Assembly: GCA_018816345.1 (NCBI GenBank)
Contig: JAHIWG010000045.1
Coordinates: 1-42,636, forward strand
Length of the DNA stretch: 42,636 nucleotides
Reading direction: 5' to 3'
Origin: Spirochaetota bacterium
Lineage (GTDB): Bacteria; Spirochaetota; Spirochaetia; Treponematales; UBA12059
Positions 24,474-29,680 of this stretch are shown here, piece after piece (position 1 is the stretch's first letter; the number at the start of each line of letters is the position of its first letter). The notes under the pieces were generated by a model, which saw only the letters and a list, made by a program, of their open reading frames with translations, did not search any database and was not told the origin of the DNA. Both the position numbers and the translations under genes were made by a program.

Positions 24474-25250
24474 ATGATTGAAGACAGAGATTCAGGCGGC
24501 GTCGTCCTCTTCGACGACGGCGACCATCGCTTTATTTGGCTAGGCGCCGACGCCCGGGGCAAGAAGGGCGTCGTGCAGACGATGCAGTACCTCATAATCG
24601 ACAAGGGCCGCGGCGTGCTCCTCGATCCGGGCGGAGTGCATCTTTTCCCCCGCGTCGTCGCGGCCGCGAGCCGCTATATATCCATAGACCGTATCGACGC
24701 CATCTTCTTCTCGCACCAGGATCCGGACGTCTCCAGCGGCATAGCGCTGTGGCTCGGCGTCACGGCGGCGAAGATATACATAGCCGAGCTGTGGATACGG
24801 TTCATACCGCATTTCGGCATCGTCGACCAGGGCCGCATCGTCCCGATAGAGGGCTCTGGCAAGTCCATCCGGCTGGGCTCGGGCGCCGAGCTGACCTTCG
24901 TGCCTACCCATTACATGCATTCGCCCGCCGCGTTCTCCCTGTTCGACGCCCGCGCGGGCGTCCTGTTCTCCGGCGACGTCGGCGGCGCGGTCTTCCCCGA
25001 CGGCGAGGAGACGGCCTACGTAGACGACTTCAAGGCGCACCTCAAGTACATAGAAGGCTTCCATAAGCGCCTCGTCGCTTCCAATTCCGTCGCTAAGCGC
25101 TGGGCCGAGAACGCGAGGCGCCTCGGTCCCAAGATGATAGCGCCCCAGCACGGCGCCGTGTACCGCGGAGACTCCGTCGGCGCCTTCCTGGACTGGCTAT
25201 CGGCCCTCCGTTGCGGCGTCGACGAGCTCGACGCGCTGTACCGGATGTGA
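24474..25250 (+). CDS. Oxygen-binding di-iron protein (ODP), metallo-beta-lactamase fold
   Basis: This 258-residue protein is the flavodiiron-type metallo-beta-lactamase domain without a flavodoxin. Candidate metal ligands are H81, D83 and D85 in [11 protein letters not shown]149 in THYMHS, D168 in FSGDVGG and H226 in APQHG. The spacing follows the H-x-E-x-D-H / H / D / H pattern of flavodiiron proteins. The second histidine of the first motif is V86 here, and the glutamate is D83. T. denticola ODP, a di-iron oxygen and iron sensor for chemotaxis, is encoded next to a soluble chemoreceptor. The gene downstream here is exactly such a receptor, which is the main reason to prefer ODP over a generic hydrolase. 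Confidence 0.82.
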
Positions 25251-25255
25251 CGCGC

Positions 25256-26149
25256 ATGGACGCGATCGCGACCGGCGCGGACGCCGGCGAGTCGAGGCGG
25301 ATGGACGAGCTCGAATCGAACTACGGCGACGCCATCGATAATTTCGTCGTCGGATACCATAAGGGGCTCGTGCTCTCCTCCGTGACCAGGCACTCGCTGG
25401 AGATCCTGGACGACTCCATGAGCCATATCGAGGCGGGGCTCTCCACCGTCGTCACCGCCTTCGAGGAGATAAAGGCGACGAGCTCCTCCACGGCCTCGAA
25501 CGCCGAGCGCATCGACTCGATGATGGCCGACGTGCTCGGCGGCAACGACGGCATAGAGGCCGGCATATCGGCCCGCATGGAGGACGTCGAGCGCGGCGTC
25601 TCCGTCGCCAAGGACCTCGGCGGCATGTTCGCCGGGCTCAAGGCGAAGACGAGCGGCGTCGCCGGGATAACCGGGGCCATACAGGACGTCTCCGACCGTA
25701 CCAACATCCTCGCCATCAACGCCTCCATAGAGGCCGCGAGGGCCGGCTCGGTCGGCAAGGGCTTCCGCATCATTGCCAACGAGGTGCGTACCCTGGCCGG
25801 CCAGACGAGCGACTTCGCCAAGCAGATCGACGCGAGCATCGGCGAGCTGTCGAGCGCTGTCGGCGACATAGCCGGGCGCATGGACGAGTTCGTCGAGCTG
25901 TTCACCAGGTTCCGGGAGTCGTTCGCCGAGGTGCGGGCCAGTTCCGGCGAGAACGCCGAGAGCGTCCGTCAGGCCGGCCAGCTCCTCGCCCAGATATCGG
26001 GCGCGATTAAGGAGGAGACCCAGGCCCTAGGCGACGGCCTCCATTCCCTGGAGTCAATATCGGCCAGCGCCAAGGACACGCACGCCGTGTTCGGCGCGCT
26101 GCGCTCCAGCCACGAATTCCTGGACACGCTCCTCGACAGGAAGGCCTGA
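25256..26149 (+). CDS. Soluble methyl-accepting chemotaxis protein (ODP partner)
   Basis: This receptor of about 297 residues has no membrane segment and no recognisable ligand-binding or HAMP domain. It is almost wholly coiled coil, with the kinase-binding hairpin tip at about 143-180 ([20 protein letters not shown], then [14 protein letters not shown]). Such sensor-less receptors bind CheA/CheW and take their signal from a separate protein, here presumably the upstream ODP. The ATG at 25256 is 5 nt after the ODP stop. A GTG at 25247 overlapping that stop, or an ATG at 25301, are alternatives. It is shorter than membrane receptors because the sensory half is absent. Its stop overlaps the next start (TGATG). 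Confidence 0.88.
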
Positions 26150-27117
26150 TGCCCGGGAGGCTATTGGCCGTCGTCACCGACGACCGGTTCGGGCGCGTCG
26201 ACGAGGAGCTGGCCGTGCTCGGGCCGCTCGGCGTCGAGCTGAGGGTCGCGTCGTGCTCGACGTCGGCCGAAGTGGCCCTGGCCTGCGCCGACGCCGACGC
26301 CGTGCTGGCCAACGCGGCTCCCGTCGACGCGGCGGCCGTAGCGGGGATGCGGCGCTGCAGGGTCGTGTCGCGCTACGGCATAGGCCTCGACAGCGTCGAC
26401 GTGGCGGCCTGCGCCGCCCGGGGCATAGCCGTGGCCAACGTGCCCGGCTACTGCGACTCCGAGGTGGCGGAGCACGCGCTCGGCCTCATATTGGCCCTGG
26501 CCCGCGGTATCCCGGAGCGCGACGCCGTCGTCCGCACGGGCGGCTGGAACGTAGCCTCCGCGCAGCGCTCGGTCGCGGGCTCCGTCGTCGGCGTCGCGGG
26601 CTTCGGCGGCTCGGGCAGGGCGTTCGCCCGCGCCGCGCTCGGGCTCCGGCCCGCTAGGCTGATCGCATGGAGCCCTAGCCTTACGCCCGAGGCGCTCGAG
26701 GCCGAGCTCGGGCCCGCGGCCGCCGCGCTCGGCGTCGATATAGCCGCGGCTAGCTTCGACGAGCTCCTGGCCGGAGCCGATTTCCTGTCTATCCACCTAC
26801 GCCTGGTCCCCGAGACGGCCGGCCTGTTCGGCGACGAGGCCTTCTCGCGCGCTAAACCCGGCGCGATCCTCGTCAACACCGCTCGCGGCGGCCTCGTCGA
26901 TTCCGCGGCCCTCGCCCGCGCCCTGCGTTCCGGCCGCCTGTCCGGGGCGGGCCTCGACGTGCTGGACTCCGAGCCGCCCCGTCCCGGGCATCCGCTCTTG
27001 TCCGCCCCCAACGTCGTCCTTACGGACCATTCGGCCTATCGCTCCGCGCGCTCGGTATCGGAGCTTAAGCGGCGCTGCGCCGAGAACGCCGCGCGGGGCC
27101 TGGGCCTGCTGGCCTAG
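26149..27117 (+). CDS. D-2-hydroxyacid dehydrogenase (SerA/PdxB-like family)
   Basis: This 322-residue NAD-dependent enzyme has the family order: a catalytic N-terminal domain with GIGLDSVDVAACAARG and VANVPGYCDSEVAEHALGL, then a Rossmann domain with VVGVAGFGGSGRAFARAALG. The active-site segments are VNTARGGLVDSAALARAL and DVLDSEPPRPGHPLL, with the catalytic histidine in LTDHSAY. It reduces a 2-keto acid or oxidises a D-2-hydroxy acid, but the exact substrate cannot be told. The ATG overlaps the chemoreceptor stop (TGATG), so the two are translationally coupled. The nucleotide loop GFGGSG departs from the common GxGxIG, as some paralogues do. Confidence 0.87.
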   Translation: MPGRLLAVVTDDRFGRVDEELAVLGPLGVELRVASCSTSAEVALACADADAVLANAAPVDAAAVAGMRRCRVVSRYGIGLDSVDVAACAARGIAVANVPGYCDSEVAEHALGLILALARGIPERDAVVRTGGWNVASAQRSVAGSVVGVAGFGGSGRAFARAALGLRPARLIAWSPSLTPEALEAELGPAAAALGVDIAAASFDELLAGADFLSIHLRLVPETAGLFGDEAFSRAKPGAILVNTARGGLVDSAALARALRSGRLSGAGLDVLDSEPPRPGHPLLSAPNVVLTDHSAYRSARSVSELKRRCAENAARGLGLLA

Positions 27118-27134
27118 GCGGCCGAATCTGATAC

Positions 27135-27163
27135 TTGCTACGTTCGCGGCCTAGAGGTATAGT
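27135..27163 (+). promoter_or_regulatory. Promoter of yjjI-yjjW
   Basis: TTGCTA (27135-27140) is followed after 17 nt by TATAGT (27158-27163). Transcription should begin near 27170, giving a leader of about 150 nt before the yjjI ATG. Confidence 0.65.
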
Positions 27164-27167
27164 TGAG

Positions 27168-27320
27168 GCTAACATCGCGCGTCGTCGCGATAAAGAACCC
27201 CGGTTAGCACGCGCGCCCGAAGGCGCGGGAGCGCAATCCAGAGCGGAGGGCCTACGGCCCCCGTCAAAACCGGCGAGGTTAAACTTCCAGAGCCTAACGT
27301 CTCTTACAGGGAGTATAACC
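27168..27320 (+). promoter_or_regulatory. Structured 5' leader of yjjI
   Basis: The leader holds several perfect stems. GCTAAC (27168-27173) pairs with GTTAGC (27203-27208), enclosing ATCGCG/CGCGAT (27174-27179 and 27186-27191). Next is a 6-bp CGCGCC/GGCGCG hairpin with tetraloop CGAA (27212-27227), then GGGCC/GGCCC (27248-27260). A second CTAAC at 27294-27298, just before the ribosome binding site (AGGGAG, 27308-27313), could compete for GTTAG at 27203-27207. This is the layout of a riboswitch or other regulatory leader. It matches no riboswitch class that I recognise. Confidence 0.5.
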
Positions 27321-28811
27321 ATGAGCCCAGCCCTCGCCGTGATCACCGACAGGACGCTAACGTACCAGCAGAAGGTCGCCGGCCTCGCCCGCGTCGGCGA
27401 ATCCACCGAAAGCCCGCTCCGCATAGGCCCCGAGCTACGCCGCTATATCGACGCCGGCGCTATCTGCGACCTATACGAGGGCTCCGCGCCGTATAGGCCC
27501 CGCTATATAGTGCCCGACTACGAGCGATTCATGAGCCGGGGCTCGGCCTTCCTGGGCCTCGAGCCTCCCCGCGACATATGGGAGGCTACCGCGGCCCTCC
27601 TCGTGCTGTATCGCCACGTTCCGAGCATCACGACCTTTCCCGTCTACCTGGGCGACATAGACGCCCTGCTCCAGCCCTTCGTAGCCGACGAGGCGGAGGC
27701 GCGCAAGGCCATAGGACTATTCCTCCTCTCGATAGACAGGACCATCAACGACTCGTTCTGCCATGCCGACATAGGCCCGGACGCGACCGCAGCCGGGCGG
27801 CTTATCCTGGAATTGACGCGAGAGCAGAAGAACGCGGTCCCCAACCTCAGCCTCAAGTACGAGGCAGGGCGTACGCCCGACGACTTCGCCGCGCTCGCCG
27901 CCTCGGTCGCCCTGGAGGTGGCCAAGCCGAGCTTCGCCAACCACGCTATGTTCGGCCGGGAGTTCCGGGACATGGGCCTGGGGGATTACGCGATAGCGTC
28001 GTGCTACAACGGCCTGCCGAAGGGCGGCGGCTCGTGCACGCTGGTACGGCTCAACCTCGCCAAGGCCGCGCCGCTAGCCGCGGGCTTGGCCGATTTCTCA
28101 AGCCGCGTGCTCCCCGACGTCGTCGCCCGCCAGCTCGAGTACATGGACGAGCGCGTGCGCTTCCTCGTGGCGGAGTCCGGCTTCTTCGAGTCGAGCTTCC
28201 TCGTCAAGGAGGGCCTCGTACGGGCCGACCGCTTCAGCGCCATGTTCGGCATCGTCGGGCTCGCGGAGTGCGTCAACGCGTTCTCGGGCGGCGCCCGATT
28301 CGGGAAGTCCGACGAGGCCGACGCCCTAGGCCTGGAGATAATCGAGCGCATCGCCGCCCTCGTCGCGGCCCACCGCACGCCGCTCCTCGCCGCGAACGGC
28401 GGGGCCTACCTCCTCCACGCCCAGGTGGGGATAGACGACGACCGGGGCGTTAGCCCGGGATGCCGCATCCCAATAGGGGAGGAGCCGGACCTGCCCGAGC
28501 ACATACTCCGCTCCGCGCCCTTCCATAGGTTCTTCCCGAGCGGAATAGGCGACGTCTTCGCCTTCGAGCCCACGGCCAAGGCCAATCCCCGGCACCTCCT
28601 CGACATAGCCAAGGGAGCCCTGGCGAGCGGCCTCCGCTATTTTAGCGCCTACGCGGCCGACGCCGACGTCGTGCGGATCACCGGCTACCTGGTCAAGCGC
28701 TCGGAGATAGAGCGGCTCGGCCGAGGAGAGCAGTCGCTACAGGACACCACGGCGCTGGGCCGCAACGCGGTCAATAACCTCGGCGTCCTCGAACGCCGTA
28801 TCCGCTCGTGA
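27321..28811 (+). CDS. yjjI: YjjI-family glycyl radical enzyme
   Basis: This 496-residue protein is close in size to E. coli YjjI (about 516). The glycyl radical loop is near the C-terminus: VVRITGYLVKR, with G455 as the radical site. A conserved cysteine lies in ASCYNGLPKGGG (C228), a good candidate for the thiyl radical. Other family stretches are SIDRTINDSFCHADIGP and FFPSGIGDVF. The reaction of YjjI is not established to my knowledge. The enzyme must be activated by its radical-SAM partner and is destroyed by oxygen. The ATG at 27321 has AGGGAG 7 nt upstream and replaces an earlier in-frame ATG inside the leader. It overlaps yjjW by 4 nt. Confidence 0.88.
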   Translation: MSPALAVITDRTLTYQQKVAGLARVGESTESPLRIGPELRRYIDAGAICDLYEGSAPYRPRYIVPDYERFMSRGSAFLGLEPPRDIWEATAALLVLYRHVPSITTFPVYLGDIDALLQPFVADEAEARKAIGLFLLSIDRTINDSFCHADIGPDATAAGRLILELTREQKNAVPNLSLKYEAGRTPDDFAALAASVALEVAKPSFANHAMFGREFRDMGLGDYAIASCYNGLPKGGGSCTLVRLNLAKAAPLAAGLADFSSRVLPDVVARQLEYMDERVRFLVAESGFFESSFLVKEGLVRADRFSAMFGIVGLAECVNAFSGGARFGKSDEADALGLEIIERIAALVAAHRTPLLAANGGAYLLHAQVGIDDDRGVSPGCRIPIGEEPDLPEHILRSAPFHRFFPSGIGDVFAFEPTAKANPRHLLDIAKGALASGLRYFSAYAADADVVRITGYLVKRSEIERLGRGEQSLQDTTALGRNAVNNLGVLERRIRS

Positions 28812-29680
28812 TTCCCGATCCCGCCGCGGAAGATGTCGTCGCGCGCGGAGTCGTCGCGAAGATCCTGCCGTTCAGCGCCGTGGACGGCCCTGGCAACCGG
28901 GCCGTGGTGTTCCTGCAGGGCTGCGACTTCGACTGCCGCTACTGCCATAATCCCGAGACCCGGGCCGCCTGCATCCATTGCGGCGAATGCGTCCCCGCCT
29001 GCCCCGCCCGGGCGCTGTCGATAGCGCCCGGCCCCGGCCTAGTATCGTGGGACCCCGCGCGCTGCACCGGCTGCGGGGCCTGCGTCGCGGCCTGCCGCCA
29101 TGATTCGTCGCCGAAGGCGAGGCTCATGGAGCCGGCCGAGGTCCTGTCGGCCCTTTCTCGCTATAGGCCTTTCCTATCGGGGATCACGGTGACCGGGGGA
29201 GAATGCGGGCTCCAGCCGGAATTCCTCGAGGCCCTGCTACGGGAGTCGCGGGCGGCCGGCCTGCCGGGGCTCGTTGACACGAACGGCTCCGCCGACTACG
29301 CGGCCCTCCCCGGCCTCGTCGAGGCGGCCGAGGGCTTCATGCTGGACGTGAAGGCCTGGGACGAAGCCGAGCATCGCGCCCTGACCGGCGTCTCAAATAG
29401 CGCCGTCATCGCCAGCCTCCGCTTCCTCCTCTCCGTTGGCAAGCTGAGCGAGGTCAGGACCGTCGTCGCCCCCGGCCTCCTCGACGCGGAGGAGACGGTG
29501 GGCGGGGTTTCCGCTATCGTCGCGGCCTCGGGGAGGGCGGTACGCTACAAGCTGATACGCTTCCGGCCGCAGGGCGTCCGCGCCGCGTGGCGGGATATCC
29601 CGACGCCCGACGACGCGACCATGGCGTCCCTGGCCGCGATAGCGCGCGGCGCGGGGCTCCGGGACGTCGTCGTCGTGTGA
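28808..29680 (+). CDS. yjjW: YjjW-type glycyl radical enzyme activase (radical SAM)
   Basis: This 290-residue activase uses S-adenosylmethionine and a 4Fe-4S cluster to place a radical on the glycine of YjjI. The radical SAM cysteines are C39, C43 and C46 in GCDFDCRYCHNPE. Two inserted ferredoxin clusters follow: CIHCGECVPAC (C55, C58, C61, C65) and CTGCGACVAAC (C86, C89, C92, C96). This insert is typical of YjjW-like activases. The TVTGGECGLQPEF segment matches the SAM-binding GGE motif. The start is a GTG overlapping the yjjI stop (GTGA), so the pair is co-translated. Confidence 0.92.
   Translation: MIPDPAAEDVVARGVVAKILPFSAVDGPGNRAVVFLQGCDFDCRYCHNPETRAACIHCGECVPACPARALSIAPGPGLVSWDPARCTGCGACVAACRHDSSPKARLMEPAEVLSALSRYRPFLSGITVTGGECGLQPEFLEALLRESRAAGLPGLVDTNGSADYAALPGLVEAAEGFMLDVKAWDEAEHRALTGVSNSAVIASLRFLLSVGKLSEVRTVVAPGLLDAEETVGGVSAIVAASGRAVRYKLIRFRPQGVRAAWRDIPTPDDATMASLAAIARGAGLRDVVVV

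Follow-up and report, generated by a model that had tools for sequence, protein, structure and literature searches.

A conserved and covarying leader RNA upstream of yjjI-yjjW in spirochaetes, a candidate riboswitch

The window, which is the whole 42,636-nt stretch of Spirochaetota DNA analysed here, possesses a yjjI gene followed by an overlapping yjjW gene (Table 1). The NCBIfam label for YjjI is 'YjjI family glycine radical enzyme', of the type hypothetical equivalog, and no PDB chain matched YjjI by sequence. Upstream of yjjI, at 24474-26149, a gene for an ODP-family (oxygen-binding di-iron) protein and then a gene for a methyl-accepting chemotaxis signalling protein are situated. Near its yjjI, G003 also has an ODP-like gene (L116 981-1757), and G007 has an MCP resembling that of the window (L112 3679-4530); the ODP and MCP genes near yjjI are possibly an oxygen-sensing pair. 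The promoter which a preliminary description of this DNA had placed before the yjjI leader was recovered by consensus scan as the sole promoter-like site within 1 kb, with 0.1 expected by chance. A -35 of the TTG type recurs in the relatives, as does a -10-like hexamer, which is placed 6-7 nt 5' of an invariant AACA; in the window the last base of the -10 hexamer is 27163 and the first base of AACA is 27171. As the promoter is phased to the invariant AACA in the relatives, transcription probably begins at AAC or slightly 5' of it, and from this spacing the 5' end of the transcript is expected at about 27170-27171.

Table 1. Features of the yjjI locus and of its leader RNA (window coordinates)
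Feature	Position	Strand	Basis
Promoter, sigma-70-like: -35 TTGCTA, 17-nt spacer, -10 TATAGT	27135-27163	+	consensus scan
Invariant 5' AAC, close to the probable transcription start	27171-27173	+	AACA invariant in 15/15
P1 hairpin AUCGCG/CGCGAU plus C27180-G27184, conserved GUC triloop 27181-27183	27174-27191	+	4/7 pairs with compensatory changes
Invariant AAA, P1-P2 joint (27191-27194 is the UAAA of invariant GAUAAA)	27192-27194	+	invariant in 15/15
P2 5' strand AACC, partner GGUU 27277-27280	27196-27199	+	found by RNAalifold; all cells paired, none vary
P3 5' strand CCGGUU, partner AACCGG 27268-27273	27200-27205	+	3/6 pairs compensatory
P3/P4 junction AGCA	27206-27209	+	mostly conserved
P4 arm, GCGC 27211-27214 with GCGC 27231-27234	27211-27234	+	3/5 pairs compensatory (model-fitted alignment A3)
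P5 arm GA(G)CGG ... CCGUC, 27241-27246 with 27261-27265	27241-27265	+	2/5 pairs compensatory
Conserved A's, then P3 3' strand AACCGG (27268-27273)	27266-27273	+	CAARAC kept in nearly all copies
GGUUAAACUUCC: GGUU is the P2 3' strand, the entire strand is anti-RBS	27277-27288	+	GUUAA invariant
RBS region GGGAGUAUAACC, predicted to be masked by 27277-27288	27309-27320	+	folding, complementarity
yjjI, glycyl radical enzyme of unknown reaction	27321-28811	+	PF11230 E 9.8e-205; TIGR04040 E 2.2e-201
yjjW, radical-SAM activase, overlaps the end of yjjI	28808-29680	+	TIGR04041 E 7.8e-98

The conserved RNA spans 27171-27289 of the window, and copies of it are present in 15 spirochaete species. Its first part is a hairpin whose loop is GUC (P1), and after this comes a domain which is closed by P2 and P3 and carries the inner arms P4 and P5. 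The motif common to the relatives, with variations, is AACAUC[hairpin]GAUAAANAACC-CCGGUU ... GUCAAAACCGG-NNN-GGUUAA. The highly conserved unpaired bases are the 5' AAC, the GUC loop, AAA, CAARA and UUAA. The GCGC/GCGC strands of P4 are replaced in relatives by GCCC/GGGC and by GUCC with GGGC or GGAC. Apart from the pairs of the model, CGCGCGU of P1 (27176-27182) and ACGCGCG of P4 (27209-27215) are perfect complements, through which members rich in G+C might misfold or pair in another way; this complementarity is not conserved in Gracilinema.

Folding of the leader was found to be more stable than that of all 200 dinucleotide shuffles (z = -3.25), and the G+C-rich hairpins noted in the preliminary description are present. 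In the model-fitted alignment, 34 compensatory (doubly changed) cells were present against 10.4 in shuffled alignments, a number reached in 0 of 500 shuffles, and sliding the structure dropped the paired cells from 93% to 40% or less. In an alignment of the 15 sequences made by MAFFT only, 95.4% of the cells were paired and 31 were doubly compensated against 8.6 when shuffled (0/500), while slid partners reduced pairing to 23-43%; shuffle tests of this kind are inflated by the relatedness of the sequences, and 15 copies from one order make up a small sample. RNAalifold recovered P1, P2, P3 and P5 unaided from MAFFT-only alignments, and the model-fitted alignment added P4. When those of the 6,820 column pairs that are at least 90% complementary were ranked by background-corrected covariation, the four highest all belonged to the model, as did six of the first seven. 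P3 holds the top two, and the P1 column pairs 15-19, 10-24, 11-23 and 14-22 rank among the best. Compensatory changes were found in several genera and in four helices. The P2 pairs are invariant and so have no covariation of their own; the case for P2 comes from this invariance and from its nesting. At the level of sequence comparison, the compensatory base changes establish a single conserved RNA structure. The preliminary description had proposed covariation among leaders of yjjI homologues as a check, with a lack of conservation and covariation in relatives counting against a switch; a conserved, covarying structure is what the relatives contain.

The element is organised differently from what had been described and is larger. 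Two CUAAC segments had been proposed to compete for one GUUAG, and the base positions given for them are correct (CUAAC 27169-27173, GUUAG 27203-27207 and CUAAC 27294-27298), but the alternation between them shows no covariation. The 5' CUAAC:GUUAG pairing has a probability of about 0.31 in the ensemble of this genome, and its covariation in the 15 species is not beyond that of shuffles; GUU varies to GUC or GCC along with P3 while AAC remains fixed. Given a transcript start at about 27170-27171, G27168 and C27169, which this pairing needs, may be untranscribed. The 3' CUAAC:GUUAG pairing has an ensemble probability of about 0, and CUAAC 27294-27298 is unconserved even within the genus. Of the switch-like architecture, the conserved structured leader before yjjI was retained, whereas the GUUAG/CUAAC competition was given up in favour of one between P2 and a helix masking the ribosome binding site (RBS).

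This second helix is formed by the tail of the RNA. GGUUAAACUUCC is complementary to GGGAGUAUAACC, which represents the Shine-Dalgarno sequence and the spacer up to the base before AUG, with a pairing energy of -15.3 kcal/mol. A mechanical pick of 39 start contexts with a Shine-Dalgarno sequence from the window averaged -6.8 kcal/mol, and only one of them reached -15.3; this single context is taken as yjjI's own, and none of the other 38 equals it. A tail:RBS helix was found in 13 of the 15 leaders (-7.3 to -17.3 kcal/mol), and the distance from tail to start codon ranges from 34 to 182 nt. The helix of G012 has changed on both sides, AAAGCUU pairing with AAGCUUU, and G028 and G056 have leaders without it. 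The P2 strand doubles as the RBS-pairing strand in 13 of the 15 leaders. As GGUU can serve only one of them at a time, P2 and the complete masking helix should exclude each other, and a competition between these two predicted helices is supported by the sequences. When P2 was forced in silico in the genus of the window, 4 nt before the AUG were opened and the Shine-Dalgarno stayed paired with ACUUCC, so switching through P2 alone looks incomplete.

To define the distribution, 99 related genomes were screened for YjjI and the regions upstream were inspected, of which 12 had one common motif. A covariance model was built from those 12 leaders, and its search of the order and the phylum detected 15 genomes with one copy each (E 1e-10 to 1e-26). 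Every copy immediately precedes yjjI. The hosts come from three families of the order, and among those with names are HGW-Spirochaetae-3 and -7, Gracilinema caldarium and several Treponema and Spirochaetales MAGs. A pattern scan of an 84,980-species collection gave 53 stretches, among which the good model scorers were all spirochaetal and the remainder were at noise. The weak matches L058, L080 and L094 were rejected as copies before other genes, lying within or antisense to unrelated genes. Fifteen clostridial yjjI loci showed no copy of the RNA. None was found in the sampled genomes of two other phyla either, a weak negative as a positive control was absent.

The YjjI tree grouped all 15 RNA-bearing proteins in one supported clade (95/91) along with two members without the RNA, which fits a history of one gain and two losses. 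The yjjI loci of G004 and G065 (L007, L012) fall in the same protein clade and possess no RNA, as apparent losses; the yjjI of G004 seemingly starts right after another reading frame. Gracilinema YjjI proteins nest inside the clade of another family, suggesting that leader and gene moved or were inherited together. In genera g8 and g10, additional G+C-rich hairpins are present between the domain and yjjI (L008:1330-1500, L009:1328-1500 and the L006 leader). They are weakly terminator-like, and in g8 they read CCGCCC...GGGCGG and then UCAUUUCG.

Scanning with Rfam 15 gave no match at gathering in the window. Nor did any family match the leader at E values up to 5, or the aptamer region of any of the 14 other members up to E 1, in agreement with the earlier remark that the leader fits no known class. 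No co-mention of yjjI and a riboswitch was found in the literature searched, which took in few subscription papers, and an earlier report may exist. The RNA is real and clade-restricted and, judged from Rfam 15 and this literature, uncatalogued. Three other readings of the leader were rejected. The yjjI frame is open upstream here (27135-28811), and a coding leader or an extended yjjI is contradicted by frame shifts and stops in the relatives, where leader lengths differ by non-multiples of three and many copies have in-frame stops 12-39 nt before the AUG. For an upstream ORF or attenuator peptide, no Shine-Dalgarno-bearing upstream ORF common to the relatives was found. A transcriptional riboswitch acting through an intrinsic terminator was set aside as no G+C-rich hairpin with a U run was found before yjjI in 26700-27700.

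Taken by its conservation and covariation, the leader is almost certainly a functional RNA. It is rather likely to be a small-molecule riboswitch, with the domain as candidate aptamer of a new orphan class governing yjjI-yjjW translation. That it represents a new spirochaete class which responds to the YjjI substrate or product and switches the translation of its own operon is an evenly balanced proposition. For the ligand, a compound used or made by YjjI would be the obvious candidate to begin with. Besides yjjW, no neighbour is conserved across genera, and as only one gene is under control, gene context gives no independent pointer to the ligand. In the mechanism proposed, transcription would start at or just upstream of the 5' AAC, and in the ligand-free state the masking helix would dominate and keep yjjI translation low. 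On binding to the domain, a small molecule connected with the YjjI reaction would then stabilise P2, which would remove the masking helix over its outer half and raise translation. Within the riboswitch reading this ON direction appears fairly probable, the reverse being the alternative; it is the direct reading of the exclusion between P2 and the masking helix, and simple thermodynamics gives no clean switch.

The conserved hairpin and junction could also be bound by a protein (YjjI, YjjW or another regulator) which controls translation. The association with one gene, the short invariant triloop on a conserved hairpin and the co-inheritance of the RNA with the YjjI clade suit such a site. It is nevertheless judged unlikely, since the conserved unpaired bases are spread across P1, the junctions and P2, as in ligand pockets, and no RNA-binding domain was matched in YjjI or YjjW by Pfam and NCBIfam. 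Even less probable is a ligand-free element, either a stable 5' leader which protects the mRNA or tunes translation or a thermometer-like RBS hairpin. The masking helix is indeed predicted to be stable regardless of the upstream domain, with a probability close to 1, but a 120-nt domain with invariant unpaired bases across divergent genera would be superfluous for protection or thermosensing. P1 read as DNA (ATCGCG-N6-CGCGAT) is a perfect 6-bp dyad immediately 3' of the promoter and could be a repressor operator at the transcription start, the remainder being incidental; the spacing of its arms differs by up to 3 nt (17-20 nt overall) and the strongest covarying pairs are those of P3, about 90 columns apart, which makes this very improbable. 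A non-functional leader which folds through composition alone would agree with the G+C-richness of the region and is refuted by the comparative data, as the excess stability over dinucleotide shuffles is joined by conservation and covariation that include copies of about 50% GC.

If the riboswitch reading is true, the identity of the ligand would reveal the pathway of YjjI. As the RNA is dedicated to one operon it offers an independent handle, by which any modulator is a candidate substrate, product or cofactor of YjjI. Rare, clade-restricted candidates of this kind tend to escape general surveys. A comparable case is the yjdF motif RNA, described as an orphan riboswitch candidate nearly always tied to one gene of unknown function (PMC4793209). 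The likeness lies in an orphan candidate bound to one uncharacterised gene; the gene is unrelated to yjjI and no Rfam family matched any copy of the yjjI leader. With translational riboswitches the leader shares a conserved multi-arm domain whose closing strand can alternatively mask the RBS, whereas it is a candidate only and its architecture is outside all Rfam 15 classes. Autoregulatory leaders of the ribosomal-protein type are likewise structured and restricted to one operon and one clade, but the products of the yjjI operon are an enzyme and its activase rather than proteins that bind RNA. The Moco riboswitch (RF01055) is also a structured leader of anaerobic metabolism; it is a separate element, and the yjjI leader gave no RF01055 match. 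Upstream of yjjI in G056, at L013:3481-3612 on the + strand, opposite to that of yjjI, a match to RF01055 with 39.5 bits, above gathering, marks a Molybdenum/Tungsten cofactor riboswitch.
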